A DNA stretch of 34,151 bases, taken from Candidatus Goldiibacteriota bacterium. Its GTDB lineage: Bacteria > Oederibacteriota > JAAXVQ01. Positions 2-34,151 of the stretch are shown one piece after another (within the stretch, counting starts at the first letter, position 1; each line of letters begins with the position of its first letter). The notes under the pieces were generated by a model. It did not search any database and was not told the origin of the DNA. It worked only from the letters and a program-made list of their open reading frames with translations. Location: contig JAGVPM010000047.1 in NCBI GenBank assembly GCA_020052235.1, positions 1 to 34,151 of the forward strand, given 5' to 3'. The translations under genes and the position numbers were made by a program.

Positions 2-169
2 GACGCAGGCAAAGTGTTGAAGGCCATGAAGCCCGAAGACGCGGGCAAGATCCTGACGGCCATGAAGCCTGAAGATGCGGGCAAAGTAGTGGCGACGCTT
101 AAGGTGGAAGACGCCAACAAAATGCTGAGCACGATGAAAGTGCAGGATGCGGACAAAGTGACGGCCGCG
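2..169 (+). repeat. 12-aa (36-nt) tandem repeat, consensus (M/L)K(P/V)EDAGK(I/V)(L/V)xxM, within giant CDS
   Basis: Units at 26-61 (MKPEDAGKILTA), 62-97 (MKPEDAGKVVAT), 98-133 (LKVEDANKMLST), 134-169 (MKVQDADKVTAA), preceded by a partial unit DAGKVLKA at the window edge. Confidence 0.88.
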
Positions 170-15100: not shown

Positions 15101-17458
15101 TCGATAGGCAACTACATTGATCAAAGGAAGGATGCGATCAAGGTATCGGGTTCTAAGATCGCATTGACCAGGGCATATGCAGAATCGTGGCAGAATCCCA
15201 CGTGGCTGCAAAATAATTCTGCACATGTGGCCGAATACCAGGCGAAGTATGGCGAAGCATGGTTTGAACCCGCTATGCGCGATCGTTTTGGCGCGGATTG
15301 GAAGATGTACTCCGGCCTGGGCCAGGCAGGGAACGTGGTGAGCCAGATGTTCACCCTGTCTCGGCAGCAGAGCCGGATCGAGACGGAATATGGGAAGCTG
15401 AACCAGAGTGCGGCTGAATTGGGTCAGCTGGTACAAAGTGGACAAGAGACAGTGGTATTCCAAGGGAAGTCCATGACAGTTCCGCAGGCGGAAAAGTTGA
15501 TGACTAACCTGCAATACGCGGCGGCAGACCTGGGACAGCGCTACAACATCACCGGGGAACGGACGGGTATCCTGGCGACCATCCAACATCCGATCCAGCA
15601 AATGGGCCAAGCCATCAATACTTTGCGCCAGCAACCGTTGTCTGAGTTGCTGCAAAAACCCGTTGCGGCAGTAGCTGGTGTGGCGGCAGCTGTGGCGATT
15701 ACATTGGGCGGTTTCTCAGGTGTTTCAGCAGGGGCATTGTCCTCGAATTGGAGTGCTTCCATTATGGCGCGGCTGAGCGGACAGTCGGCGGTTGTAGAAA
15801 CGCTTACACCGGAAACCGAAGCAGCGGCTGTGGTTGCCGGTACGTCCAAGGCAAAGGAAAGCGCGGATCCAACCCAGCCGGGACTTGCAGTGTCGACCCC
15901 GGGGCTTGCAACTGTGCACACGGCCAAAGTCAATGGCAGCTTGGTCGAAGCCTGGAAACAGCAAGTGGGAGAAAATCGCGACGGTCAACAAGCGGTGTCG
16001 AGCCTGTCGGAGTTGTTGAACGAGCGCGGGATAACGCTGAAGACCGGAACCGAAGCGCGGTATTACGGGCATATGCACTTATTGGCCTCGGCGCTGTCGT
16101 TGCTGGAAAAAGGACCGGTATCATTGCAGGAATTGTTCCGCACCATCAGCGTGGCGGATGCATCCCAAGCCAATAACGGGCTCTTTGTGCCGAAAACCGC
16201 GGCCGGGTTCTTTGCCAGCCAGAGGTATGTAAACGTAGTTATGAACCAAGCTGCGTTGAAGATCGCGGATGAGATTGCCAAGAGCACGCCTGAAGCTGAT
16301 GCGGCAGTAAGAAAGTTAGGCTTCATGGGCATGTTTAAGGATTATCAAATCGGCCAGCATCCGGATGTTTGGATGGCGGAATTCGTGAAGAATTATATTC
16401 TAAACGGCGACGAATTGCGGGCGGATATGAAGGCGTGGCCGAACGGTGAACAAAAAGTTTTGATTCAGGAAGCCTATACCGCCATTCAGAAAGCGTTCAA
16501 GAATGTGGAATATGGCGAAAAGGATCTGGCGGAAATGGCCAAAGCCGTGCAGAGCATGGAAAAAGACGCCGGTGCTTTGATGGCCAATGCGGAACGTTCC
16601 ATCCAAAGTGATTTGGCCAAGGCTGATGCAGGCGACCGTACGGCCTTGAAAATCGCCAAGGACGAGGAATTTGAAATGCGGTTTGGCATTACCCGGACGG
16701 ATTACCAGCAGATGTCCCGGATGCCATTGGGCCTGAGGATGGCGCAATGGTTGTCGGATGAAACGGCTTTGCGGGCAAATCCCATCCGGGAATCGAATAT
16801 ATCGGGGCTGAAGTTGGCCGGGTTGGGAGTTGCGGTTGCCGCATTGGGCGTATTTGCCGTGGCTGGGGCGGCGACTATAGCTGCAGTTGGAGCGTTTGCC
16901 ATGGCTGCAGGGCTGGCCATGGGCGGGTTGTTTATCATGGCGCAGGCGGATCAGATCGCCTGGAGCATGAACCCGGGTGATTATATTATGACCCGGTTGA
17001 ATAAGGGGGCCTACAAAGAATTTGGTGCAGGTTTGTTGGCGGACAATGAATTTAAGCAAGCCGTTGGTGGTCTGAGGGTTCCCGGCACGCAGCGGGTGGT
17101 TTCGGAAGAAAACCGCACGCGGGCCATCCGGATAGTATTGGATCATCTGCTAAAGACAGCGCAAGCCAATTCCGCGAACGATGCGAAGTTGGAGCCGCAA
17201 ATCCGCAGCGCAGCTGGTGTGCTGCAGATGCTGCAGTTCAACGTGGCTACGGAAATATCCAAATCCGGTGCCGCCAACGGGCAGTTGTCGGTTCAAATGA
17301 CGCCGACAGTTCAACCGTCCAAAGCCTTGATGATGGACGATAAATTCAAACGGGTGGTTGAACAAATTAATTTCTTGGGCATCATTAACATCAATCTTCC
17401 CGCGCGTTGGGAACAGCAGAAGCCCATGAAGTTGAAGACCTCGGACAGCGCCGCCTAA
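2..17458 (+). CDS. Giant multidomain repeat protein, 5' end outside the window; contains SecA-like ATPase module, 41-aa repeat array, coiled-coil and hydrophobic segments
   Basis: Uninterrupted frame. The track starts it at a GTG (nt 14), but the frame is open back to nt 2 and encodes DAGKVLKA, the tail of the same 12-aa repeat that follows, so the real start is upstream. Stop TAA at 17456-17458 is followed by a strong terminator. Confidence 0.93.
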   Translation, partial: DAGKVLKAMKPEDAGKILTAMKPEDAGKVVATLKVEDANKMLSTMKVQDADKVTAASKVVQGSSVTDGTMLAENGGKKAAKTTVVGLDGETATTRMRSTATSLGQTNPNGNATVKPTGTMNWNGSFNPQLEQRFIRPQVATVVYVKDVSYVRTTQPTMKAAANLVATTVLDNPLSDNALDSGSSNWARAYEAATGRGPTTTGPPSLTQVVQDTAVRVQGTQTTQAPPRPEVTTHGTSQTWSQPTNTDPGGRNLGGQHEHKRQKSEKPKEPSGCAKFFASPIGKILMFVVSVILTVITVGTAAPLLLALCIMLLFITTFVPLPKGWAMALSILTAALGGWASAIQAAGTTIAFTAISALIKTLSSSAVWTSILKAVIREAIILYFMDKFQDASPIFFVLVSLCASVVAGALANGIVGLFADTKSMWDGLKDSLRDLVGMKDGVSYTIFRAVASPLAISLGSVLIQVGVSAILEKNTDMNQADRTMVSSMAGTLVMGAAAFGASAMSPVDTMAGSSALKSTGQLFMSYVVRPMIQTAASTAFSVYVAPAFQQQGYASVQYQQMAQSLGQFASGLMPASMTGDPSILTQFSQSIKALDGTNGQTGNGNGTGNGNGTGNGTGNGTGTGTGPNLNGVTVTENPIPGLNAGVSEGTTDKGTGTTGAGLGKGSVPVGSVSTAENAIVPAESLANNGVSDSSGAMNRAKTEMASSTAGGASSSSSQQPSNTEKKLPENMKTNNPVNKPVDTPQNTPQNNPVQNQAQTPETTGLNSAQQVKNEPNREMSPQNVEPVEMKVAKDNSEPAKIVDLNGAKDASANNKTNPSPLRRNDETKTVVGNVTTGGGTGGNGTGGNGTGGSGTSGSGTSGSGTSGSGVDLQNVQALSDAVAPRDGSQAPVTKVNSSGLANGSSANNTQFKQLQQQMDKNGTLPSGNFDVQVSTYQNAAGQNVTLMAATDAQGNQVISAQISGGGKPAVNLVMSQTGSGNTAALKVAEFAGDNTTPVKDQTFSKAAGPNGVNGGGVNGGGASGSSSPGERLNGDKTPAQNLKALLSGMAPGENVVPNSAKGSGDANNGGANNGGGKGSGSDNGGTKNASNNAGEPLKIDGLDSKIKPEGHGLLGAAYRGIFGGEPSGGPSNNATASFNANGTKVDLDYQIPVNSNNRSITAKGSDGNNYQLQLNQNGTVKAVLGRETTVGNGLSNFFSTENHTGFQAAGSKDISVQTSHGEQVYRSDGKGGSKLVADTQSMQIPGPNGQTQTLTGLVPEGTPANLKEATILANQSPNALAQNQSVLREAYDKGIKEGSADFQKLVMDKYQAVAKDVPEQIYSKVGQNNSPQANGLLAKADQMIIAREGSTNPANLQKFVDHAVASGNPALMQQASVMKMSLGDVSGAQKTALAAYNAGIKMPEISRTDLALQTLDVLNKTGMSPKSPEYEAVAKTAIEGVRSDIATNKLSTENFARALELNGVMGKDVLNLSNMSTEITQRVIAEGDKLTPGKTVNVEGIGTVVKAADGSLHLQQQAGDRLITMDFVKGKDNAVSLTRVTVTDGREKPVAVYSTNGGATLTLMETRHSVSVTIDGKTSVQDVMIIKGQTSGEIIVGGKIYEVAIDPVTHQVGSVDISRQPQFVDLSAIREPGKLVFENGQPIVIMPDGTKVSAPKLDGAALETSVVASLVAKGMSPDQAKIQADRMIAGLKLEPGAQIYQAGSRLFIGKPEDFVAGNYRTAEVNRFSTKADAQMTICIAEYKDGKIAVAYLGAEYKDGKLVAPAKVIMPQSYNANGSVKDFVATQRDSVTNREYVSQYKDGKLVTGELRMKNFGPVVLQFDPKGDLTPECRAYLKANSGHGYTFTDIQGGFELTGLAGEKAAFTNSGRVINRSADGVNANASANSESGPYMQSTTIEFDTQQNVTYNFAKYNSQEGESITLVNSTKQTMSIQHTAEGGLIRTTTTSTVFGVWAKTQTDYLTNHTVRDATTGIEVKHFAGETVVSTPAGSKITRGYEVSTFTRDHETLDATTGVKVNHYAGEQVESSSKGSKIIAGTEITTFTVEYSTTDSVSGVKVTHSAGETVESTKDGSHITNGKETTVFTKNYTTTDSATGVKVDHIAGETLESTKDGSKITAGREVTTFTKNYTVTDDKTGVKVDHIAGETVESTKDGSKITAGSEITTFTKDYKVTDDKTGVVVEHYAGETLESKPEGTKITAGKEKTSFTLDYSVTDEKTGVVVKHFAGEQLVSTKDSTKIVDGKETATFTQDYTNLDAATGIESKHYAGEVVQSDAKGSRITTGHETTTFTRKYSQTDGKTGAIITHSKGEVVESNAKGSKIISGYESTYFTRDYTSNEAHGVQVTHYKGETLVTDASGSRITAGYEDTKFTQEYTAPIDKATGVQITHRAGEVIRSDKSGGKIIAGSEESLFTREYSVTDKTSGAVIKHEVGEVVASTGDGSKIIKGRETMTYSKQYTALDEKTGVQVTHFAGEVVASTSEGSKVIKGRETTTYTKQYTTLDVKTGMRVTHFAGEIITTTPEGSKLTAGREKIEFTRNYETTDSKTGIKITHFAGETVEASTTGSKIIAGRETTTFTRDYAVSDDKTGVKITHKAGEVVESSSAGTKIIAGMEYTNFTRDYETTDAATGVKVKHFAGEMIMANSKGSEIVGGHEVTTFTKDYTVMDEKTGVRVVHSAGQKIDSSSAGQKIIEGKQATTFTRDYTVTGEDGKPVVHKAGKTITTEIMNLEGGKAEVTNVSQGGNNAVFINGKQISMGNQVNVSVHDGKIVLLDERGVEKTFNGKGQDVTGFWQDKANSWHGFTDTFVKAADAFWTNVIGNFSESWNSFDGWARVGMLVLSTVAVIGEFVIYGVKTIVGAAVMVLDMVGSTVGTALEWYIDLSTPGALEKRLTTGESVGREAIGEIREGLKVVSEVMEKGFKWVGDKFQWVADQYIKMAEASFNAGGFWGTAGGLLCTLLATTYQSIGQNLQIIVITVLVIAFPCVGGIIATAMMAKDAVINGLGSMFKSFFVDPFVKLGNGFAQMGNLIMGNVEAGASKVRAFVNATSEIIGAAVGIYFAWQMVKAAVGEAKAARGEVLLEGALERIQSGLRDGSIRPEELATKTVGEVLGLKTAPSLMDRVGQIFGKEKADWAGQSFGDVLLKTENGMIKVSELLGKENGAAMLKEMLTSEGFKMGDLNLEVKAPKDGMIKKQFDKWLDRPGGSAMVPRRITEMVKPAQVGRGMSTVGTGVGLTTFVKTFALHQVEQFTNIYKILESKFGRQEVGQARSADGLLAETKLTAAEVETKIADVDAAKAALEGRAQELKGGLSEKSSTQTPQERVSAQKKLQNTQRAIEAKVAERGQLEQLKNTVSELKQARSTAANPELTAQARAEAATRAATLDVEAKLCETKANALNVEAKIADLNAKAVDGKVDSQARSELAKQADAMQRQAKNLEAIQAASERLSASETQLSSAKEELAKSKEAQSEKTKTQEAQSEKSMTKLEAEVKRAESEVRKASTELTEKTVDQAMEKAASSKALGDLMKLKSEVQAQAARAEFAERQTQEKFDKALAKEAEAKIKDLVTKAKVEGMTEGQVRSAIEKISNEPGMSQGEKMALQKALAESTNGKITNESLKQFQGDKGLTRLQGMVENGFGKQAREILKLLCKAEGIKDSQVRAAIEKRLGMDSRVNTENVNTAKLDQAMSQVFGGEGSHSLALTRSMAQAQNGEIRQALKDFYNELGNKDATVESALRKNKGVNEALNKLEKVEGKETVQELARNLKPDQLQALLGAADPMAALLNMKKSQAGRSLAEVRAGEQRTEGIEKVAEKGMAETKTSEMARVEGKTPSVETGAQEHGTTVAERKTGQMENPLARETVKSTERGQGTQVEGSGKTLMQEKVKGSSVAEGLEAASSAGEQVKAAQKGSITEMMSEGTAPESLLKRSLQVQKAANELNMRIAERNQATTAEARQLAEQHITSAENRLQKAQELARIKPDAGYVFRPGELKARFESGRSGMGTNPAMMIDVKMALEGLSPEQAKVLRPKLEAWNRQQETIAAGSDLSGTTGWQRLVTRLISPFQGEGSVMGRVRNMFLTEAGMQRAVEARKQTIMEIRESGGGDQLLRAAKLEGMTDFRPEAIEKIGSTMQTLMEGMRAELGGKVQLSEKQMSQMKEMLVEKISAEMPELNAQSVKIMGELMVRFQMDGKYNGFTLDPPMLSFLFRQAELHYLNMELKGKNPVAKMLIGEALQLAMGGGKSCSPLALEVARELFKANNPGKPVPAQLYMTNVGLVDPILGEGPFKKMVSEGRGDLVVLTKETAQEVIKNGFAENKVYVMDNETLKHAVLEMRSQGKSDAQISRTLQGRLGTVAWDEFHAAFHTTDTIIGASGVFTHLSDVAKMQLSTMAVDHVATYAKVREWFMDQVKDPVTGTIDKGKFIKLFENIERGPAQEVRNQLQFTSEACEAIKQATGLDFRKAGDAMILEKMARVLTTKNGREWTGSLDTRDGSTHYGTAEGGVGKPNTIFGDQLQAAFTNAEIFLSETGTKASQIHGREFARRNPKFVESVVEALVHTTTERVTMMEAMNLLGAQNVVGFSGTFEGMKGALGSWGKQVVAINREPVIDMHQIMDGEAYFKIKVGEDVVMVKRSAEGKLIMEWAPEGFNEQAFFVKYAQELMGSPSAVKGRTVTQQIFTHNDNPVLAETRQRMQEALGKERTEMVTISTDTVETFIKESGMKVERIDGKLSDVSSKTVIKELLRVQGEGKTQLILIDGMSPDLWSSAMQVLKGEIQASGGWQQQRMIFAPKIGEGLNTLEIKGSEMVNMGAALHQMDMRPLDVYRQTMKRLNVTDAVLEGGYKRAKGLTGMSLDFNDINNVTRGEAREFAQLISRVKETMQAQGTRTIEVDLSEGTRLDGSKGLVMADTQSAKYFREFNDMLVGEGRKIGEGAQVEVVGIAKRILNEVDAQKISSSLQTQAGIKTEETVRVSVEKGSAEYMPELARTIERNMPELMRKYQGVSDLVARTEVGRSQMVDTPWFNPGGLKNGVTLPALVGSIGNYIDQRKDAIKVSGSKIALTRAYAESWQNPTWLQNNSAHVAEYQAKYGEAWFEPAMRDRFGADWKMYSGLGQAGNVVSQMFTLSRQQSRIETEYGKLNQSAAELGQLVQSGQETVVFQGKSMTVPQAEKLMTNLQYAAADLGQRYNITGERTGILATIQHPIQQMGQAINTLRQQPLSELLQKPVAAVAGVAAAVAITLGGFSGVSAGALSSNWSASIMARLSGQSAVVETLTPETEAAAVVAGTSKAKESADPTQPGLAVSTPGLATVHTAKVNGSLVEAWKQQVGENRDGQQAVSSLSELLNERGITLKTGTEARYYGHMHLLASALSLLEKGPVSLQELFRTISVADASQANNGLFVPKTAAGFFASQRYVNVVMNQAALKIADEIAKSTPEADAAVRKLGFMGMFKDYQIGQHPDVWMAEFVKNYILNGDELRADMKAWPNGEQKVLIQEAYTAIQKAFKNVEYGEKDLAEMAKAVQSMEKDAGALMANAERSIQSDLAKADAGDRTALKIAKDEEFEMRFGITRTDYQQMSRMPLGLRMAQWLSDETALRANPIRESNISGLKLAGLGVAVAALGVFAVAGAATIAAVGAFAMAAGLAMGGLFIMAQADQIAWSMNPGDYIMTRLNKGAYKEFGAGLLADNEFKQAVGGLRVPGTQRVVSEENRTRAIRIVLDHLLKTAQANSANDAKLEPQIRSAAGVLQMLQFNVATEISKSGAANGQLSVQMTPTVQPSKALMMDDKFKRVVEQINFLGIININLPARWEQQKPMKLKTSDSAA
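820..1515 (+). other. N-terminal hydrophobic, probably multi-pass transmembrane block of giant protein
   Basis: Translated segments ILMFVVSVILTVITVGTAAPLLLALCIMLLFITTFVPL, MALSILTAALGGWASAI, IFFVLVSLCASVVAGALANGIVGLFA and MAGTLVMGAAAFGASAM. Confidence 0.7.
1798..1880 (+). repeat. In-frame (TGNGNG)n / (TGNG)n low-complexity linker
   Basis: Translation QTGNGNGTGNGNGTGNGTGNGTGTGTG; DNA built from ggcaatggaacg/ggcaatggaaca units. Confidence 0.85.
2508..2608 (+). repeat. In-frame GTGGN / GTSGS low-complexity linker with three exact 15-nt copies
   Basis: GGCAGTGGAACCAGC occurs three times head-to-tail at 2555-2599, following GGNGTGGNGTGGSGTSG-type coding repeats. Confidence 0.85.
5879..8092 (+). 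repeat. 18 tandem 41-aa repeats (123-nt period) inside giant protein, consensus FTRDYxxTDxKTGVKVTHxAGExVESxxxGSKIxAGxExTT, plus a truncated 19th unit at 8093-8190
   Basis: Repeats aligned by eye; 5879-8092 is 2214 nt = 18 x 123. Only two units deviate in length (one of 40 aa, the next of 42 aa). Confidence 0.93.
8485..9200 (+). other. Central hydrophobic/amphipathic block of giant protein (candidate membrane segments)
   Basis: VGMLVLSTVAVIGEFVIYGVKTIVGAAVMVLDMVG, GTAGGLLCTLLATTY, LQIIVITVLVIAFPCVGGIIATAMM and IIGAAVGIYFAWQMV. Confidence 0.65.
9820..10720 (+). other. Long Ala/Glu/Lys/Gln-rich predicted coiled-coil region of giant protein
   Basis: TKLTAAEVETKIADVDAAKAALEGRAQELKGG...LEAEVKRAESEVRKASTELTEK...; no prolines over long stretches, heptad-like spacing. 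Confidence 0.75.
12540..14560 (+). other. Divergent SecA/SF2-like ATPase module within the giant CDS
   Basis: Walker A-like LQLAMGGGKS (GGGKS codons 12704-12718), DExH-like GTVAWDEFH (13058-13069), and NVVGFSGTFEGMKGALGSWGKQVVAINREPVIDM, which parallels the SecA segment LAGMTGTA...VVVIPTNRPVIR (SGT at 13730-13738). Confidence 0.72.
15640..15750 (+). other. Hydrophobic segment of giant protein (candidate TM)
   Basis: LLQKPVAAVAGVAAAVAITLGGFSGVSAGAL. Confidence 0.6.
16805..16950 (+). other. C-terminal hydrophobic hairpin of giant protein (candidate TM pair)
   Basis: LAGLGVAVAALGVFAVAGAATIAAVGAFAMAAGLAMGGLFIMA. Confidence 0.65.
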
Positions 17459-19366: not shown

Positions 19367-20471
19367 ATGAAAGCTAAAAAAAATACACGTCAGTGGTTGT
19401 GGTGCGCCGCACTTACATGGCTTGCCGTCGCACTGTTTTATTTTACCGGTCCTTTGATCCACTTGGAATGGTTGGCTACGGATCGTTTGGAACAATGGCA
19501 AGCTAAAAATTCGCCGCTGTGTCAGGATCTGCAGTTCGTGGTGTTGGATCAGCGCAGTTTGGAAGCCGGAGCCAAGGAGTATGGGCTTTCGTGGCCTTGG
19601 CCGCGGGAAGCCTATGCGCAAATATTGGATTACTTAAAGCGTGCAGGCGCCCGGTTGGTTATCTTGGATTTTTTATTCACCGAATCCTATTCAAATGCCT
19701 ACGGCCCCGAGGACGATGCCCAATTGGTGGCCGCGCTGCAGAATCAGGGCAAAGTTTATATTCCGTTTATAACCAAAAAAAAGGGTGCTCCCCATGAGGC
19801 TGAACGTTTATTTGAAGTTCGTCCGGATTTGGGGATTGAATTTATTGGCTCCAATTGGGCGCAAGATGCCCAACAGGGCGTAAGCGTTTCATTGCCATCC
19901 ATTTTGACGGCGTTGCCCGGCGTATCCGGCCATTTTGGCTTTTGGATAAACATTTGGTTCCCAGCCTGGGATTTGCGCCTTTGGTTGGTCCGGGGGCGCA
20001 TCGGGTTTGGGCAGAGGGAAACTGGCTGCATTTGGATTCACAAAAATGGCCCATGGACAGTGAAGGCAACATTTTGCTCCGCTATCGCGCTTGGAGGGTG
20101 TGAATAAATTTTATGAGACTTCGATTTTAATAAGCCAAGAGACGCATGCGGCCTTGGGAGCGCGTTTGGTGACCCGGGAATTGGATTACATCCGCGTGAA
20201 GGGAAAACAGGATCCCACACGGATCTATGAAGTGATGGCTGAACCCGGGGAATTAACCGATGCGCAAAAGGCATTTTTGGGGCATTATCAAGCCGGGCTG
20301 GAAGCGTTTTGGCAGCGCGCATTCGGCAAAGCCCGCAAGCAATTGATGCAAGCGTTGCGCCATAGGCCCGCTGATTTCCCGGCCCGTATGTTTTTAGAGC
20401 GGTGTGACCGGTATATCAAACGGGCGCCGGGGCCCCGGTGGGACGGCGTGACTATTTTAAAATCCAAGTGA
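19367..20471 (+). pseudogene. Degraded CHASE2 - class III adenylate/guanylate cyclase gene (catalytic core missing, three reading frames)
   Basis: Frame 19367-~19943 encodes TM + CHASE2 start; 19945-~20090 in another frame encodes LDKHLVPSLGFAPL...PMDSEGNILLRYR (CHASE2 end); 20091-20471 in the third frame encodes LEGVNKFYETSILISQETHAALGARLVTRELDYIRVKGKQDPTRIYEV (extreme C-terminus of class III cyclases). Confidence 0.82.
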
Positions 20472-21959: not shown

Positions 21960-24900
21960 ATGCCCAAATCGTTTTTTGATCCGCGAAATCGCCGTAGTTA
22001 CAACAAGCTTCAAGAAATCATGGAAATTCCGAACTTGATGGAAATTCAGAAGAAGTCGTACAACGACTTCATTCAGAAGGCCATCTTGCCGGAAAATCGC
22101 AAAAACCAAGGTCTGCAAGCGGTTTTTCAAAGCGTATTTCCCATTTACGACTTCAACAACAATTCAAGCTTGGAATTTGCGGGCTTCAGCTTTGGAGAAC
22201 CCAAGTATTCCGTGGAGGAATGCCGGGAACGGGACATGAGTTTTTCCGCCCCGCTCAAGGTGACCTTGCGGCTGGTAGTCCGGGAAAGCGATCCGGAAAC
22301 CAAGGTCAAACGCATTAAGGATATCAAAGAACAAGAAGTATTCTTTTGCGAATTGCCCTTGATGACCAGCAAAGGGACTTTCATTATTAATGGCGCCGAG
22401 CGCGTCATTGTGTCCCAGTTGCATCGTTCTCCCGGTGTTTCGTTCGACGAAGACGAAAGCAAAGGGCAAACCATGGGACGCCGTTACTTGGTGGCCCGGA
22501 TCATTCCTTATTGGGGTTCGTGGTTGGAGTTTGAATACGATACCAACAATATTGTGTACATCCGTATTGACCGGAAACGCAAGATTTTGGCCACGACTCT
22601 TTTGAAGGCCATTGGATTTTCAACGCAGCAAAAAATCCTGAGCTTGTTTCATGAAACCGAAAATGTTGCGACCAATGATTCAGCCGTGGATCGCGTGCTT
22701 ATGGATGACGTGGCGGATGCCGGTACCGGGGAAGTAATTGCCGAATGCAATACCTTGTTAACCTCGGAAATCATTCAAAAAATCAGGGCTGCCAAAATTA
22801 ATAAAATACCCGTGGCCGTGGCCGGAGTGGACGAATTACTGTCACTGCATTATACCTTGGCTAAGGATAATACGCGTTCCAAGAACGAAGCCATGATCGA
22901 AATCTACCGGAAGATGCGTCCCGGCGATCCGCCCACGGTGGAAAGCGCCGCGGCATTGTTGGAGGGTTTATTTTTCAACCCCAAACGGTATAACCTGTCC
23001 AAGGTGGGACGCTACAAGCTGAATAAACGCTTGGGGCTGACCATCCCCATGGACCATACGACATTGAAAAAAGAAGACGTGGTTGAGGTTATGAAGTATT
23101 TGGTGAAACTCAACAATGAGCAGGGCGAAAAGGATGACATTGACCATTTGGGCAACCGCCGCATCCGTTCCTCGGGTGAACTTTTGGAAAATCAATTCCG
23201 CATCGGATTGGCCCGCATTGAACGTGCCGTGAAGGAACGCATGTCCATTTTGGACATTGACACGGCCATGCCTTCGAATCTCATTAATGCCAAACCGGTG
23301 GCGGCTGCGGTCAAGGAATTTTTCGGTTCCTCGCAGTTGTCCCAGTTCATGGATCAAACCAATCCCTTGGCGGAGTTGACGCACAAGCGCCGCTTGTCCG
23401 CGCTCGGCCCCGGCGGTTTGAATCGTGAACGCGCGGGTTTTGAAGTGCGCGACGTGCATCACACGCACTACGGGCGTATTTGCCCCATTGAAACACCGGA
23501 AGGCCCGAACATCGGTTTGATTTCTTCGCTGGCCACTTTTGCGCGTGTCAATGACTATGGGTTCATTGAGACCCCGTATTTAAAAGTGGAAAACGGCAAA
23601 GTTACGGATGAAATCCGTTACTTGGTGGCGGATGAAGAAGATGAGTACGTTATTGCCCAGGCCAATGCCCCGGTGGATAAAAACAGCCATTTGGTGGGTC
23701 CGGTCATTTCAGCCCGTTTGCGCGGTGATTTTCCCTTGGTCAATCCCAAGGAAGTTCACTTCATGGACGTGTCGCCGAAACAATTGGTGTCCATTGCCAC
23801 GGCCTTGATTCCGTTCTTGGAGCACGATGACGCGAACCGCGCCTTGATGGGTTCCAACATGCAGCGCCAGGCCGTGCCCTTGCTGCGCACCGAAGCGCCC
23901 CTGGTGGGAACCGGGATTGAAGGCAAATGCGCCTATGACTCCGGAGTTATGATTTTGGCCAAGCACGATGGTATTGTTGAGAAGGTAGGCTCGGATCAGA
24001 TCGTGGTTTCCTGGGAAGATAAAAAAGACGGCAAAGTCCGCCTGGATGTTTATAATCTGACCAAGTACCAGCGCTCAAATCAAGATACCTGCATCAATCA
24101 AAAACCGGTTGTACGCAAAGGGGAGCATGTCCGTAAAGGACAAGTTCTGGCCGACGGTCCGTCGACCTCCGGCGGTGAGTTGGCGTTGGGTCAAAATATC
24201 CTGATGGCATTCTTGCCCTGGCAAGGTTACAACTTCGAGGACGCGATTATCGTTTCCGAGCGTTTGCTGAAGGAAGACCGTTTCACCTCGGTGCATATCG
24301 AGGAGTTCGAATTGGAAGCCCGTGATACCAAACTGGGCAAGGAAGAAATTACGCGCGATATTCCCAATGTCGGGGAAGATGCTTTGAAAGATTTGGATGA
24401 GACCGGCATTATCCGCATGGGCGCGGAGGTTGGCCCGGGGGACATTTTGGTGGGCAAAGTAACGCCCAAAGGTGAAACCGAGCTGAGCCCGGAAGAAAAA
24501 TTGTTGCGCGCCATTTTCGGCGAAAAATCCGGCGATGTGCGCGATGCCTCGCTGAAGGTTCCGCCCGGGATCGAAGGCAAGGTGATTGACGTCAAGGTCT
24601 TCTCGCGGCGTGAACGTGATGAAAAAATCCGCGCGCGCGATTTGGACCGGATCAAGAAATTGGAAAAAGAACGCATGCGTTTGGAAGCTCGCTTGGATCA
24701 GAATCGTGCCGCTCAAATTGCGGACATAGAGAAAAAATTAGTCGAAGACCTGGCTGAATTGAAAAAAGGCGGCAAGGGCGATGCCGCGGAACTGAAAGAA
24801 ACGGCCGTGTCCGAAATTAATAAGACCGAGCAAATCAGCGAGGAAATGAAAGATAAGCTGAATAATGACTACGAGCGGATGATCCTTAAGATTCGCAAAG

Positions 24901-25769
24901 GCGATGAGTTGCCGCCGGGAGTCATCAAGCTGGTCAAAGTTTACGTGGCGAAAAAACGTAAATTGTCCGTAGGCGATAAGATGGCCGGACGTCACGGTAA
25001 CAAGGGTGTGGTTTCCCGCGTGGTGCCGGAAGAAGATATGCCGTATTTGGCCGATGGCACCCCGGTGGATATTATTTTGAATCCCCTGGGCGTTCCTTCC
25101 CGCATGAACGTGGGTCAGATTTTGGAAACCCACTTGGGGTGGGCCGCGCATCATTTGAACATTCACGTGGCTACTCCGGTTTTTGCCGGTGCCACGGAAG
25201 GTGAAATTAAATCAGCTTTGCAGGAAGCAGGCTTGCCGGAAACCGGCACGATTGCACTGCACGACGGCCGGACCGGGGAAACATTTGATAACCCCGTGAC
25301 CGTGGGCTTCATGTACATGCTGAAACTGGCGCACTTGGTGGACGATAAGATCCATGCTCGTTCCATCGGCCCCTACTCGCTTATCACGCAACAGCCGTTG
25401 GGCGGTAAGGCGCAGTTCGGCGGTCAGCGTTTCGGGGAAATGGAAGTGTGGGCCCTGGAAGCGTATGGCGCGGCCAATACCCTGCAAGAGTTGTTGACGG
25501 TCAAATCCGATGATGCGGCCGGGCGCACCAAAATTTATGAAGCTATCGTAAAGGGTAAAAACGCTCCGGATTCCTGCATTCCGGAATCCTTTAATGTCTT
25601 GGTTAAAGAATTGCAAAGTTTATGTTTGAACATTGAACTGTTGCGCAATTCCAAAGAAACGGCGGAGAAATTGGCCGCGGCCGAAGCGGCGGGCAAACCC
25701 GCCGAAAAGGAAAAGGAAAAAGCAGCAGCGAAACCTAAGAAGCGCAAGCAAGCCAAGGAGGACGCATGA
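21960..25769 (+). CDS. rpoB: DNA-directed RNA polymerase subunit beta
   Basis: [82 protein letters not shown] aggaggag before ATG. Confidence 0.99.
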
Positions 25770-28700
25770 GAATGGATGGCGGCTTAACTGAAAAAATGAC
25801 GTTGCTCCAACGGGAGCGCGAGAAAGAACGCGAATACCACGAATCGCGCGTGGCGGGCATGTTTGACGCCATTCGCATTTCATTGGCTTCGCCCGAAGTC
25901 ATTCGTAATTGGTCCAAAGGGGAAGTGAAAAAACCCGAGACCATTAATTATCGTACGTTTAAACCTGAACGCGAAGGTTTGTTCGATGAACGTATTTTCG
26001 GTCCCACCAAGGATTGGGAGTGCGCGTGCGGCAAATATAAGCGTATCCGCTACAAAGGCGTGGTCTGCGACCGTTGCGGAGTGGAAATTACCCAGGCTAA
26101 AGTCCGGCGCGAACGTTTGGGGCATATTGAATTGGTTTCCCCGGTCACGCATATTTGGTATTTCAAAGGCGTGCCTTCACGGATTGCGTACCTGCTGAAC
26201 GTCGGTACCCGTATTTTGGAAAAGATTATCTATTATGAAAATTACATTGTCACCGATCCCGGGGACACCCCGCTGGCTAAAAAACAGATTTTGACCGAGG
26301 AAGATTACCGGGGTTTCCGCGAACAATACGGCAATGCCTTCACGGCCAAGATGGGCGCTGAATCCATCCGTGATTTGTTGCGCGAGTTGAATTTGGAAGA
26401 AATGTCCGAGAAGTTGCATAAGGACATGGAAACTGCTTCCGTGCAAAAACGCAAGGAAATCGTGAAGCGTTTGAAAGTGGTGGAGGCTTTTCGTAAATCG
26501 GGCAACAAACCCGAGTGGATGGTGCTGGAAGTTGTTCCTGTTCTTCCGCCCGAGTTGCGCCCCCTGGTGCCGTTGGACGGCGGGCGTTTTGCCACCTCGG
26601 ATTTGAATGATTTGTACCGCCGGGTCATCAACCGCAACAACCGGTTGAAAAAATTGATTGATCTCAAAGCGCCGGATGTTATTGTGCGCAATGAAAAGCG
26701 CATGCTGCAGGAAGCGGTGGATGCCTTGTTCGACAATGGCCGCCGCGGCCATGCGGTCAAGGGTCCGGGCAACCGCCCCTTGAAGTCGCTTTCCGACATG
26801 CTCAAGGGCAAGCAAGGCCGTTTCCGCCAAAACTTGCTCGGCAAGCGCGTGGACTATTCCGGACGTTCGGTCATCGTGGTGGGTCCGGAATTGAAATTGT
26901 GGCAGTGCGGTTTGCCCAAGAAAATGGCGTTGGAATTATTCAAGCCCTTTATTATTAAAAAGCTTGAAGACAGAGGATATGTCCATACCATCAAGAGCGC
27001 AAAAAAAATGGTGGAAAAGGTTAAACCCGAAGTTTGGGATATTTTGGAAGAAGTTTTGGAAGACCATCCGATTCTGCTCAACCGCGCCCCCACTCTGCAC
27101 CGCCAGGGGATTCAGGCATTCTTGCCGGTGTTGGTTGAAGGCAAAGCTTTGCGTATTCACCCTTTGGTCTGCGCTGCGTTTAACGCTGACTTTGACGGTG
27201 ATCAGATGGCGGTACATATTCCGCTTTCATCCGAAGCGCAATTGGAAGCGCGTGTGTTGATGATGTCTACAGCAAACATTATATCGACCGCCAGCGGCAA
27301 ACCGATTATTTCACCTTCGCAGGATATTGTTTTGGGGAATTATTACCTCACCAAAGAACGGGCCAGCGAAGGCAAGGAACGGCATGTGTTTTCTTCGCCG
27401 CAGGAAGTAATGATTGCCTTGGATGCCAACGAAATTTCCTACCACGCGTTGGTGAAGGTTCGCATGCATGGGAAATTGGTGGAGACGACACCAGGACGCG
27501 CTTGCTTTAACGAACAAGTGTTGCCGGAAAAGATGCGTTATGTCAACAAAGTGCTCAACAAGAAAGAATTGACCAACTTGGTGGCGCGTTGCCATAAAGA
27601 ATTAGGCACCTATGAAACCGTATTGATGCTGGACCGCATGAAGGAAGTGGGTTTCTTTTTTGCGACCAAGGCCGGATTTACGGTTGCAATTAATGATATG
27701 CGTATCCCGGAAAATAAATGGGTTATGATTGAAGCGGCCAAAAAGGAAGTAACGGCCATTGAAAAACAATATCAGCAAGGCGTCATTACCGATGGCGAAC
27801 GTTACAACAAAGTCATTGATATTTGGACGCATACCACTGATTCCATTGCCGAATTCATGATGGACGATTTGAGCCAGGATCGTGAAGGCTTCAATCCCAT
27901 CTTCATGATGGCGGACTCCGGCGCCCGCGGTTCTAAAATGCAGATCCGTCAGTTGGCCGGTATGCGCGGTTTGATGGCCAAACCGCAGCAGAAAATTACC
28001 GGTGCTACCGGTGAAATTATTGAACAGCCCATTATCGCCAACTTCCGCGAGGGTTTGACCGTGTTGGAGTACTTTATTTCCACTCACGGTGCGCGTAAAG
28101 GTTTGGCCGATACAGCCTTGAAAACCGCCGACGCAGGTTACTTAACGCGCCGTTTGGTGGACGTGGCGCAGGAAGTGATTATTTCCGAGGAAGATTGCGG
28201 AACCTTGAACGGTATTTCCATCGGTGCCATTCGCGAAGGCTCGGAAGTCATCGAACCTTTGAAGGAACGTATCCTGGGCCGCGTGGCTTTGGACAACGTG
28301 GTTGACTTGTTGACCGATGAAGTGCTGGTGCGTTCGGGCCAGATGATCAACGAGGAAATTGCCGAGAAGATTGAAAATGCGGTGGTGGAAAAAATCCGCA
28401 TCCGCTCCGTGTTGACCTGCGAAAGCCGCCGCGGTGTTTGCGCCCAGTGCTATGGACGCAATTTGTCGACGGGACGCAAAGTTGACATCGGCGAGGCGGT
28501 CGGCATCATTGCCGCCCAGTCCATCGGCGAACCCGGTACCCAGTTGACGCTGCGTACCTTCCACATCGGCGGTACGGCCAGCCGCGTGTTGGAAGTTTCG
28601 AAAATCGAAATCAAGAATGATGGTATAGCCCGTTATCAGAATTTGCGCTCCATTCAAAATTCTTCGGGTGATTGGATTGTTTTGAACCGCAACGCGGAAT

Positions 28701-29887
28701 TGGGCGTATACGACAACCGCGGTGCGGAACGTGAATTGTACCCCGTGCCGTATGGAACTGTATTAAAAGTGAAAGACGGCTCGCCGGTTAAAAAAGGCGA
28801 GGTAGTGGCTTTGTGGGATTTGTACAACGTTCCGATCTTTACGGAAGTCGCCGGCCGGGTCCACCTGGAAGATATTATTGACGGTGTGACCATGAAGGAA
28901 CAGACCGATGAATCAACTGGGTTGATCGGGCGTGTGATCATCGAACACCGCGAAGAGAATTTGCATCCGCAGATTGTTATTCGCGACAAGGAAGAACACG
29001 TTTTAGCCACCTATGCCATCCCCACGGGCGCTTATTTCACCGTGGAAGACAACATGGACGTGAAAGCCGGAGATATTATCTCCAAGATACCGCGTGAAAT
29101 ATCCAAGACCCGCGACATCACCGGCGGCCTGCCGCGCGTGGCGGAATTGTTCGAAGCGCGCAAACCCAAGAGTGCGGCTGCGATTTCTGAAATCGACGGT
29201 ACCGTGCATTTTGAGGGCATGGTGCGCGGTATGCGGAAAGTGATCGTGCGCCACGAAACAGGCACTGAGAAGGAATACTTAATTCCGGGCGGTAAGCATT
29301 TGAATGTCCGCGACGGTGACCGCGTGCAAGCCGGCGAACCGTTGACTGACGGCCCGATCAATCCGCACGATATTCTTGAGATCAAGGGTGAGAATGAAGT
29401 TCAGGAATACCTGGTAAACAAAGTTCAGGAAGTTTACCGTCTGCAGGGTGTTACCATCAACGACAAGCACATTGAAGTTATTGTGCGCCAGTTGTTGCGC
29501 AAGGTTGTGATTGAAGACGCCGGCGACACGGAGTTCCTGGTCGGCACGCAAGTGGACCGCTTTGCATTCCGCGATGAAAATGAGCGGGCCATCAAGATGG
29601 GCGGCAAGCCGGCAACGGCGCGTCCGATTCTGTTGGGTATTACCAAGGCCAGCTTGGGCACGGACAGCTTCATCTCGGCGGCATCCTTCCAGGAAACAAC
29701 CAGGGTGCTGACAGAAGCGGCCGTAGCGGGAAAAGTGGATGATCTGCGCGGCTTGAAAGAGAACGTAATTATGGGACATTTGATTTCAGCCGGCACGGGT
29801 ATGCCTCACTTGGTCAAGATCCGCAAGGATTCTGTCAAGAAGGAAGAGGTGGCGTTGGCGGCTGAACAAATAGAAGTAAAAAATTAA
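25766..29887 (+). CDS. rpoC: DNA-directed RNA polymerase subunit beta'
   Basis: [12 protein letters not shown], zinc-binding [36 protein letters not shown]; 4-nt ATGA overlap with the rpoB stop. Confidence 0.99.
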
Positions 29888-29897
29888 TAAAAAAATA

Positions 29898-29926
29898 TTG
29901 ACATAGGAAAGATGTTTTTATATAAT
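29898..29926 (+). promoter_or_regulatory. Perfect consensus sigma70 promoter
   Basis: TTGACA 29898-29903, 17-bp spacer, TATAAT 29921-29926; begins 10 nt after the rpoC stop. Confidence 0.9.
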
Positions 29927-29932
29927 TTCGAC

Positions 29933-30194
29933 TCCTTTCACGGCAAGCCATTGTGCATGTGACCATGGCAAGACGCGAAAGGAAAGTACGTCCGGTTGTA
30001 CCAGGGAGCTCACGGCTTTAGGCCACGGCGATTATCCGTGCAGCTGTGAGGAGAAGAAACCACGCTTCGCAGAAGTACATTGGAGCGCAGGTCTTCCTGC
30101 AGTACATTTTTGTGTAGGCATTTGGTTCTAGTGATCCGCGAGGATCATTTTACCATTCACAAAAAAGACGGATGTTATCCGTCTTTTTTGTTTT
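29933..30194 (+). ncRNA. Candidate structured RNA (independent ncRNA or attenuating leader) between rpoC and rpsL
   Basis: Five helical domains found by eye: TCCTTTC/GAAAGGA with inner GCCAT/ATGGC; GTAC/GTAC; CTCACGGCT/AGCTGTGAG with inner CACGG/CCGTG; GTAC-GCAGG-tctt-CCTGC-GTAC; TTTTTGTG/CACAAAAA with inner TGATCC-GCGA-GGATCA. It ends in an intrinsic terminator. No supported ORF. Confidence 0.72.
30161..30194 (+). terminator. Intrinsic terminator inside the rpsL leader
   Basis: AAAAAAGACGGAT-gtt-ATCCGTCTTTTTTgtttt: perfect 13-bp inverted repeat with U-tract. Confidence 0.92.
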
Positions 30195-30203
30195 GTAAAG
30201 GCA

Positions 30204-30223
30204 GTAGAGAAAATCATCTCTAC
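30204..30223 (+). promoter_or_regulatory. Hairpin just upstream of the rpsL ribosome-binding site
   Basis: GTAGAGA-aaatca-TCTCTAC perfect 7-bp stem; SD agggagg at 30235-30241. Confidence 0.6.
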
Positions 30224-30248
30224 GCAAATTTCACAGGGAGGCCAGTTC

Positions 30249-30623
30249 ATGCCGACCATTAGTCAATTGGTTCGTAAAGGCCGCGAAATGATGCGGAGCA
30301 AGACTTCGTCCCCGGCGCTGAAAGGTTGCCCTCAGCGCCGGGGTGTTTGTGTGCGCGTTTATACCGTCACGCCGAAAAAACCAAACTCCGCGTTGCGTAA
30401 GGTTGCGCGCGTGCGTTTGACCAACGGGATGGAAGTTACTTGCTACATTCCGGGTGAAGGGCATAACCTGCAGGAACACTCGATTGTTTTGATCCGTGGT
30501 GGCCGTGTCAAGGATCTTCCGGGCGTGCGCTACCACATTGTTCGCGGAACATTGGATACAGCCGGTGTTCAAAATCGTAAACAGAGCCGTTCGAAGTACG
30601 GCCTGAAGCGTCCCAAAAAGTAG
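30249..30623 (+). CDS. rpsL: 30S ribosomal protein S12
   Basis: [11 protein letters not shown]...[60 protein letters not shown]. Confidence 0.99.
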
Positions 30624-30645
30624 GGAAGGGTTTCAAACCCTTCCC
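30623..30645 (+). other. Perfect hairpin in the rpsL-rpsG intercistronic gap
   Basis: GGGAAGGGTTT-c-AAACCCTTCCC, followed by tttgg rather than a U-tract. Confidence 0.8.
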
Positions 30646-30669
30646 TTTGGATTCAGGAGGATGTAAAGC

Positions 30670-31140
30670 ATGCCTAGAAAAAAGATGAATTGCCTGCGCG
30701 AAGTTGGGCCGGATTACCGGTATCACAGTCCGTTGGTTTCGAAGTTTATTAATTCAATCATGGACCAGGGCAAGAAGAGCACGGCTGAACAAATAGTTTA
30801 TGGCGCCCTGGAAATTATCAAGAAAAAGAACGGCGATCCCACGTTGAACACCTTCAAGCAAGCGGTGGAAAACGTAAAGCCGTCCTTGGAAGTCAAGTCG
30901 CGCCGTGTTGGGGGAGCCAACTATCAGGTGCCGATTGAAGTCCGCCCTGAGCGTAAGTTGTCGCTGGCGTTCCGTTGGATTCGTGAAGCGGCCCGGGCAC
31001 GCAAGGGATTGAGCATGCAGGAACGCCTGGCGGCTGAGTTGCTCGAAGCTTCCGCCAACCAAGGCGCGGCCGTGAAAAAGCGTGAAGATACGCATAAAAT
31101 GGCCGAAGCCAATAAAGCATTTGCGCATTACAAGTTTTAA
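30670..31140 (+). CDS. rpsG: 30S ribosomal protein S7
   Basis: MPRKK...[23 protein letters not shown]...[27 protein letters not shown] aggagg. Confidence 0.99.
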
Positions 31141-31145
31141 CCCCG

Positions 31146-31167
31146 GCAAGCCCGTATGGCGGGTTGC
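31146..31167 (+). other. Hairpin in the rpsG-fusA gap
   Basis: GCAA(g)CCCG-tatgg-CGGGTTGC, 8-bp stem with one bulged G; no U-tract. Confidence 0.55.
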
Positions 31168-31197
31168 TTAGAAATCTTTGTTTAAGAGGGTAAGAAG

Positions 31198-33282
31198 TTG
31201 TCACAGACATTGGATCTCAACAAATACCGGAACATCGGCATCATGGCGCACATTGATGCCGGAAAAACCACGTTGACCGAACGGGTTTTGTTTTATACGG
31301 GCAAACTGTATAAAATCGGTGAAGTGCATGATGGGACTGCTACCATGGACTGGATGGTCCAGGAGCAGGAACGCGGCATTACCATTACCTCGGCCGCGAC
31401 GACTTGTTTCTGGAAACATCAGCGTATCAATATTATTGATACGCCCGGTCACGTGGATTTCACGGTGGAAGTGGAACGTTCTTTGCGCGTGCTGGACGGC
31501 GCCGTGGCAGTGTTTGACGGTGTGGCCGGCGTGCAACCCCAGTCGGAGACTGTATGGCGCCAAGCGGATAAATATCATGTTCCGCGTTTGGCCTTTATCA
31601 ATAAGATGGACCGCGTGGGTGCTAATTTTATGCATGCGGTCGGCACGATCCGCGACCGTTTGGGCGCGCGCGCAGTTCCGATTCAATTACCGGTGGGCTC
31701 GGAATCCGGCTTTAAAGGCGTCGTGGATTTAATTGAAATGAAACAGTATGTCTGGAACACCGAAGGCATGGGTGATGACTATGATACTGTTGATATTGAT
31801 GAAGAATTATTTTTGACTGCCCGTTCCAAACGCGAAAAATTAATTGAAGCGTTGGCTGATTTTGATGACGCCATCATGGAGAAATTTATTGGCGGTAATA
31901 CGGATGTTTCAGCCATGGACATCAAAGTTGCGCTCCGCAAAGCTACGTTGACCGGTAAATTGGTGCCTGTGCTCTTGGGCACGGCTTTTAAAAATAAAGG
32001 CATTCAACCCTTGTTGGATGCCGTGACCTTGTACTTGCCCTCGCCGCTGGATAAACCGCCGATGGAAGGCGTTTTGCCGGATAGCGACACAAAAGAAGTT
32101 CGTCTGGCTGATGTGAAGGCACCTTTCTCGGCTTTGGCTTTTAAAATCATGAGCGACCCGCACGTTGGCCGTTTAACTTACTTCCGCATTTATTCGGGGT
32201 CTTTGTCCACTGGTTCCTATATTTATAATTCAACCCGCGGCAAACGTGAACGTCTGGGACGCTTGCTGGAAATGCACGCCAATAAACGTGAAGAAATTGA
32301 CAATGCTTCGGCCGGGGATATTGTGGCTGCGGTGGGCTTGAAATACACCTATACCGGAGATACGCTTTGCTCCGAAGAGCAACCAATTATTTTGGAATCC
32401 ATGACCTTCCCGGAACCGGTTATCTCGGTTGCCATTGAACCGAAGACCAAGGTGGATCAGGAAAAGATGGGCCAGGCGTTGCAACGCTTGTCTGAAGAAG
32501 ATCCCACGTTCCGCATCCGTACCGATGAGGAAACCGGCCAGACCTTGATTTGGGGCATGGGCGAGTTGCATTTGGAAATCATCGTGGACCGCATGATGCG
32601 TGAATTCAAAGTGGAAGCCAATGTCGGCAAGCCGCAGGTGGCTTACCGTGAAACCATCCGCAAAGCGGTTGAGCAAGAAGGCAAGTTTATCCGCCAAAGC
32701 GGCGGCCGCGGCCAGTATGGCCATGTTTGGATTAAGCTGGAACCGCAGGAACCCGGCAAAGGTTATGAATTTGAAAATAAAACTGTTGGTGGTTCCATTC
32801 CAAAAGAATATGTTGAACCCGTCAATAAGGGCATTCAAGAAGCCATGCAATCCGGTGTTTTGGCCGGGTATCCTGTGGTTGATTTTAAAGTTGTGCTGTT
32901 TGATGGTTCGTATCACGATGTCGATTCCTCGGAAATGGCCTTTAAAATTGCCGGTTCCATGGCATTTAAGGAAGGCTGCCATAAAGCGCAACCCGTGTTG
33001 CTGGAACCGGTTTTCTCCATTGAAGTGGTCACACCGGAAGATTATATGGGCGATGTGATGGGTAATTTGAATTCGCGCCGCGGACGCATTGAAGGCATGG
33101 AAAAACAAGGAAATACCCAAATGATTCATGGACATGTCCCTCTGGGTGAAATGTTTGGATATGCCACGGACCTGCGTTCCATGACTCAAGGCCGTGCAAC
33201 GTTTACAATGCAGTTTTCGCACTACGCTGAAGTACCCCGGAGCATTTCCGAGGCGGTTGTAGCTAAGGTGCAGGGTAAATAA
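31198..33282 (+). CDS. fusA: Elongation factor G (TTG start)
   Basis: [67 protein letters not shown] preceded by agagggtaag. Confidence 0.98.
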
Positions 33283-33286
33283 TTTT

Positions 33287-33315
33287 GTACGGGCGGGGAT
33301 GAAACCCGTCCCTAC
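33287..33315. repeat. Short palindromic intergenic repeat (GTACGGGCGGG-gatgaaa-CCCGTCCCTAC)
   Basis: Imperfect 11-bp inverted repeat (one mismatch, one G-U); same CG(C/T)CCCTAC edge as the element at 19284-19308. Confidence 0.75.
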
Positions 33316-33341
33316 GGTAAACCTCATGGGAGGACGAACTA

Positions 33342-34151
33342 ATGGCGAAGCAGAAGTTTGAACGCAATAAGCCGCACGTAAACATCGGCACGATCGGCCA
33401 CGTTGACCACGGCAAGACCACGTTGACGGCGACGATCACGATGTATCTGTCGAGCAAGGGCATGGCGTCGGTGAAGAAATACGACGAAATCGACAATGCG
33501 CCGGAAGAAAAAGCACGCGGAATAACGATCAACACGGCACACGTTGAGTACGAGACCACGAAGCGCCACTATGCGCACGTGGACTGCCCCGGGCACGCGG
33601 ACTATATTAAGAACATGATCACTGGAGCCGCGCAGATGGACGGCGCGATCTTGTTGGTCTCGGCGACTGACGGCCCCATGCCGCAGACGCGCGAACACAT
33701 TTTGTTGGCCCGCCAGGTGGGTGTGCCGCAGATGGTTGTGTTCATGAACAAAGTGGACCAGGTAGATGATCCGGAATTGCTGGACCTGGTAGAAATGGAA
33801 ATTCGCGAGTTGCTGACGAAGTATGAATTTCAGGGAGACAAGACCCCGATCATTCGCGGCAGCGCTTTGAAAGCCATGGAAAAAGGTTTGACCGGCGTGT
33901 TCACGGGCCCGGAATGGGAACCGATCCAGAAGTTGATGGATGCGGTGGACGAATACATCCCGACCCCGACGCGCGACGTAGACAAACCGTTCTTGATGGC
34001 CGTAGAAGACGTATTTTCGATCACGGGCCGGGGAACAGTGGCCACGGGCCGTGTGGAACGCGGTAAGGTGAAAGTGGGAGACGAAGTTGAATTGGTCGGC
34101 ATCATGGACACGAAGAAGAGCGTGGTGACCGGGGTGGAAATGTTCCGCAAG
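33342..34151 (+). CDS. tuf: Elongation factor Tu, 3'-truncated by window end
   Basis: Frame from ATG 33342 reads [42 protein letters not shown]...[60 protein letters not shown]. Missing from the ORF track, presumably because no stop is in the window. Confidence 0.98.

Follow-up and report, generated by a model that had tools for sequence, protein, structure and literature searches.

A structured leader RNA between rpoC and rpsL in a Candidatus Goldiibacteriota bacterium and its probable role as a transcription attenuator

Genes and signals around the rpoC-rpsL gap

The window analyzed here, a stretch of 34,151 nucleotides from contig JAGVPM010000047.1 of a Candidatus Goldiibacteriota bacterium, carries rpoB (21960-25769) and rpoC (25766-29887), the latter forming the upstream border of a gap that is filled by an exact promoter, a leader of ~258 nt and a strong intrinsic terminator. 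Beyond the gap lie rpsL (S12; 30249-30623), which is the first gene of the operon under proposed control and has its Shine-Dalgarno sequence at 30236-30241, and then rpsG, fusA and tuf (30670-34151), with tuf cut by the contig end; these genes and the features of the gap described below are on the + strand. The first-pass annotation had reported an exact TTGACA-17-TATAAT promoter, and this was indeed found at 29898-29926 with 12/12 matches (-35 element at 29898-29903, spacer of 17 nt, TATAAT at 29921-29926). The comparison set comprised 45 genomes of the phylum, eight of them in the same taxonomic order, and the promoter is kept as TATAAT or TATACT in all eight. Judging from the promoter, transcription would start at ~29933.

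Across the eight genomes of the order, 28-72 nt separate the terminator from rpsL, and no promoter was recognizable in this interval in any of them, the 28-29 nt available in two genomes being too short for one; thus, transcription of rpsL must depend on read-through, either from the leader promoter or from rpoBC. In G001, G013 and G017, which are all three of the genomes whose contigs extend that far, the contig that carries rpsL also has rpsJ ~4 kb further downstream, followed by rplC, rplD and further S10 genes, as well as by spc genes in G001 and G013 (the S10 and spc genes of these relatives were named from their sequences and order). Because rpsJ and the S10 and spc genes follow and no promoter is recognizable past the terminator, the leader probably heads a str-S10-spc superoperon. 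Knowledge of how the str operon is controlled comes mainly from E. coli. S7, L4 and S8, the regulators of the str, S10 and spc operons in that species, are among the candidate ligands of the leader.

Several minor features of the window were also observed. A hairpin (GTAGAGA/TCTCTAC, 30204-30223) is located between the terminator and rpsL, and a similar form occurs in G001. The contig stops within tuf (33342-34151), and the contigs of several relatives stop a few kb past rpsL, perhaps because of a second tuf copy. Upstream of the rpo genes, a giant open frame (2-17458; >5,800 aa) contains long repeats and gave no more than a weak, sub-threshold Pfam match, and a CHASE2-domain ORF followed by a second ORF in an overlapping frame (19367-20471) is perhaps a frameshifted gene.

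Conserved structure of the leader

In all eight genomes of the order the element occurs as a single copy, invariably 5' of rpsL, and it is absent from the rest of the 45. The eight share one layout: TTGACA and, after a 17-nt spacer, TATAAT or TATACT; then a leader ~220-285 nt long; and lastly a terminator built around GACGG...CCGTC. DNA similarity picked up the terminator region in the rpoC-rpsL gap of every other genome of the order; across the phylum, past the genus, no match was obtained outside that region. An alignment of the eight leaders (A1) yielded a consensus three-way junction of P1, a variable P2 hairpin and P3, and this P1-P3 core is the portion of the leader conserved across the order. 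P1 pairs 29998-30008 (GUAC plus CAGGGAG) with 30093-30105 (CUUCCUG, CA and GUAC); its consensus is GUAC/GUAC and GGGAGG/CUUCCC, and CAGGGAG/CUUCCUG is the version in the window. P2 (30009-30050), which varies in length and sequence, has the stem CTCACGGCT/AGCTGTGAG at 30009-30017/30042-30050, and P3 (30059-30092; ACC-A-CGCUUC / GGAGCG-CA-GGU in the window) has the consensus ACC-A-CGUUCC / GGAACG-AA-GGU. The conserved J2/3 together with the start of P3 reads GAAGAAACCACG (30053-30064). The invariant blocks of A1 are GAAGAAACC and AGGUCUUCC; at the junction, GAAGAAACC and CG are invariant in 8/8, with one A position replaced by C in two genomes.

Two ways in which the leader could act through translation bear on these conserved sequences. 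A translational leader, in which the 3' strand of P1 (CUUCC) masks the Shine-Dalgarno sequence of rpsL (GGAGG), is suggested by the identical recurrence of CAGGGAG from the P1 5' strand at that Shine-Dalgarno (30234-30240); however, CUUCC pairs with any Shine-Dalgarno sequence, and a strong terminator, kept in 8/8, intervenes, and we consider this mode of control very improbable. Likewise, a leader-peptide attenuator, in which translation of a short ORF (MKKPR...) beginning at AUGAAGAAACCACGUUC controls termination, would fit the AUG followed by AAG AAA CC(A/C) CG in seven of the eight genomes. Yet the window's own genome has GAG instead of AUG, the ORFs run for 6 to 46 codons and share no C-terminal part, the invariant GGUCUUCC block is spread over three reading frames, and the AAG AAA codons lack synonymous variation, which fits RNA conservation. 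The leader peptide was dropped on the evidence of the start codon and the frames, and it is a very unlikely basis of control.

Comparison of the eight sequences, a number that keeps the covariation modest, revealed compensatory changes in P3 at alignment pairs 117/149, 119/147 and 120/146 and one more in P1. Paired cells amounted to 96.7%, against 40-49% in slid controls, and double changes were observed in 4 pairs and 7 cells, against 2.3 in shuffles, none of 500 shuffles reaching 7. Covariation among relatives, which had been put forward as a check on the candidate RNA, is therefore present in this order, and the feature that marks an r-leader, a covariation-supported structure consistently upstream of ribosomal-protein genes, was found. 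A covariance model of the leader (R1), which is sequence-heavy, gave one match in each of the eight genomes, without exception within the rpoC-rpsL gap. In the 37 other genomes of the phylum it gave a single chance-level match (17.9 bits, E ~1), and in 80 rpsL loci of other phyla the window itself was the sole match.

Folding placed all of the stems named in the first-pass annotation, namely a 7-bp 5' helix, a 9-bp stem, a hairpin with a GCGA loop (30131-30148) and a perfect terminator. The 5' hairpin (29933-29983) has the stem TCCTTTC/GAAAGGA (29933-29939/29977-29983), and a linker hairpin with the GCGA loop is positioned at 30130-30149; both differ among relatives, the 5' stem being absent from G016 and G017 and the linker being occupied by a hairpin of other sequence. 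The terminator, AAAAAAGACGGAT-GTT-ATCCGTCTTTTTT (30160-30190; 13 to 15 bp), is kept in 8/8. The RNA from 29933 to 30194 has a folding energy of -96.8 kcal/mol, compared with -73.7 +/- 4.7 in shuffled sequences (z = -4.96). Because the junction core (29984-30105) by itself is no stabler than shuffles (z = -0.94), the stability of the whole leader comes partly from the terminator, and the structural case therefore rests on the comparison of relatives.

Searches against Rfam, also proposed as a check on the first-pass reading, detected no known class at gathering score in the window or at the loci of five relatives. At E up to 10, matches were sub-threshold only, the best being STnc50 over the terminator region (30.5 bits vs 55). 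The first-pass annotation had recognized no hallmark motif of tmRNA, RNase P RNA, SRP RNA or 6S RNA. For 29850-30300, no SRP model scored even with E allowed up to 10, and RNase P RNA, 6S RNA and tmRNA were rejected as identities of this RNA since their family models do not match here; their genes reside on different contigs of this genome. A search of the genome with the small SRP model (RF00169) detected no SRP RNA. In a search for rRNA mimicry, R1 reached at best 10.3 bits against the genome's own 16S and 23S, on the minus strand, and purely structural mimicry would escape R1.

A putative terminator/antiterminator switch

Immediately 5' of P1 lies a segment, ACGUCCG in the window and CAUCCGU in most relatives, that is complementary to the terminator's 5' arm and loop. 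As a complement of the terminator arm, with 7 to 13 bp, this segment outdoes all other leader windows in six of the eight genomes. In the window, the putative antiterminator joins ACGTCCG (29988-29994) to CGGATGT (30169-30175), the latter overlapping the terminator 5' arm and loop. When the RNA was folded only to the terminator loop, the antiterminator formed in 6/8, the window included (7/7 pairs), and in full-length folds the terminator form was stabler in 7/8 (-97.1 vs -88.7 for the antiterminator form in the window). In these folding models, the behavior of truncated and full transcripts is that of an attenuator decided during transcription. By the criteria for rpsL-leader attenuators, a terminator is found in 8/8, and an exclusive antiterminator is clear in 6/8 and weak in two, G001 (G-G mismatch) and G017 (bulge). 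Changes in the antiterminator among the eight genomes are one-sided only (G-U), and the 7-bp antiterminator of the window, taken alone, is within chance (p = 0.23 vs shuffled leaders). The structure, the fixed position, the terminator and the antiterminator are supported by these computations.

Of the two roles that the first-pass annotation had offered for the RNA, attenuator/riboswitch of the str operon or stand-alone ncRNA, that of an attenuator is well supported by its single copy, its position 5' of rpsL in 8/8, the exclusive antiterminator and the lack of a recognizable promoter past the terminator. An abundant stand-alone ncRNA with its own promoter and terminator, lying between rpoC and rpsL by chance, would account for the perfect promoter, strong terminator and stable fold, and the lack of an Rfam match leaves room for an unknown ncRNA. 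Nevertheless, the element occurs nowhere but 5' of rpsL in 8/8, rpsL has no recognizable promoter past the terminator, the conserved complementarity between leader and terminator arm would be pointless in a simple ncRNA, and the RNase P, 6S and tmRNA genes sit elsewhere; hence this role is unlikely and was not favored. A metabolite riboswitch of the transcription-attenuation type over a translation operon would also fit a three-way fold with an invariant junction joined to an antiterminator/terminator platform. However, the element is confined to one operon and occurs at no other gene in the 45 genomes of the phylum, and ribosomal proteins are the effectors of the known leaders of such operons (PMC10931766, PMC4538822), so that a metabolite as the effector appears improbable.

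We therefore favor, with a probability of about three in four (0.76), a transcription attenuator acting in cis on the rpsL operon over a stand-alone ncRNA, and the attenuator is probably autoregulated by a ribosomal protein. In the proposed mechanism, an RNA started at ~29933 would form the nascent three-way junction P1-P2-P3, and the emerging 5' arm of the terminator would pair first with the segment 5' of P1 (29988-29994 with 30169-30175). With this antiterminator in place, polymerase would continue into rpsL-rpsG-fusA-tuf and the S10 and spc genes; if it were blocked or broken, the stabler terminator would form and transcription would end at ~30190. What the ligand is and which sign the control has are our inference: one of the operon's ribosomal proteins, when exceeding free rRNA, would most likely bind the conserved junction and block the antiterminator, resulting in negative feedback. 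P1 and the antiterminator do not overlap, which counts against a ligand of P1-P3 opposing the antiterminator. In the RNA of the window, a GUAC...GUAC hairpin (29986-30001) could mask the antiterminator strand and P1 together as a possible anti-antiterminator; its upstream GUAC is lacking in relatives.

Comparison with known leaders and other families

Naville and Gautheret (2010; PMC2965389) characterized the rpsL leader as a multiform attenuator that has putative antiterminators and lacks any shared feature, following earlier predictions of rpsL-leader attenuators by Merino and Yanofsky (cited in PMC2965389). The described cases, in Listeria, Xanthomonas, Pseudomonas, Rickettsia and streptococci, share neither sequence nor structure (PMC2965389). 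Like them, the present leader combines an intrinsic terminator with a putative antiterminator upstream of rpsL at the head of the str operon, but it differs from them in its P1-P3 junction, which was found in one order only. The novelty claimed for this RNA holds accordingly in part: its structure is absent from Rfam, whereas diverse attenuating rpsL leaders were already described (PMC2965389), so that the structural version is what is new. A survey table of 20 new r-leaders contains no rpsL leader (PMC7247131).

The rpsL motif of Candidatus Pelagibacter ubique is a three-stem junction in the rpoC-rpsL position that heads a str-S10-spc superoperon (Meyer et al., 2009; PMC2704228). Compared by topology and place alone, it resembles the present leader in its rpoC-rpsL position, the bulged P1 leading to a three-stem junction and the conserved J2/3, but it has no terminator by the criteria of PMC2965389. 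In the B. subtilis rplJL leader, L10(L12)4 controls expression by r-protein attenuation, the protein stabilizing a defined anti-antiterminator (PMC4538822). The choice between terminator and antiterminator upstream of a ribosomal-protein operon is similar here, but the operon and ligand are other ones, and the sole candidate for an anti-antiterminator is the GUAC/GUAC hairpin in the window RNA. In E. coli, S7 controls the str operon at the level of translation, with the rpsL-rpsG gap as its site of action (PMC10931766); the operon is the same, but that control is translational and lacks a 5' attenuator like the one proposed here.

Among the rpoC-rpsL gaps of other families in the phylum (L107-L128), several combine a promoter of their own with a short, unrelated leader and a terminator. 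Some of these leaders have a segment that complements the terminator arm or loop, such as that of L124, in which UAACAGCUCUUUUU is complementary to GAAAAGAGCUGUUG over 14 bp. Among the six f13 and f15 loci, such complementarity had p ~0.015 to 0.06 in five, whereas L127 was read at a different terminator; f10 leaders have terminators, and no promoter was found in their gap. These sequences suggest that the attenuation site persists in the phylum while the sensor changes. A more far-reaching proposal, which we regard as doubtful, holds that the junction is a distinct sensor of a ribosomal protein, not described so far and perhaps identical as a ligand-binding RNA to the Pelagibacter rpsL motif, serving as one attenuator over a str-S10-spc superoperon of at least 20 genes, with the sensor swapped in other families at the kept site.

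To our knowledge, predictions of rpsL attenuators in many bacteria have provided neither a common structure nor an identified ligand. What the present leader offers is a defined sensor, backed by covariation and joined to a clear terminator/antiterminator platform, in an order whose str, S10 and spc genes all seem to be driven from a single promoter. The leader is short enough for in vitro work with purified S7, S12, S8, L4 or S10, which makes the controlling protein of rpsL leaders directly testable, and the differing leaders at one site in other families would allow sensor replacement under constant regulatory logic to be studied. Within the operon itself, the rpsL-rpsG gap of the window (30624-30669) contains a perfect hairpin, GGGAAGGGTTTCAAACCCTTCCC, and the E. 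coli S7 site sits within the corresponding gap (PMC10931766).
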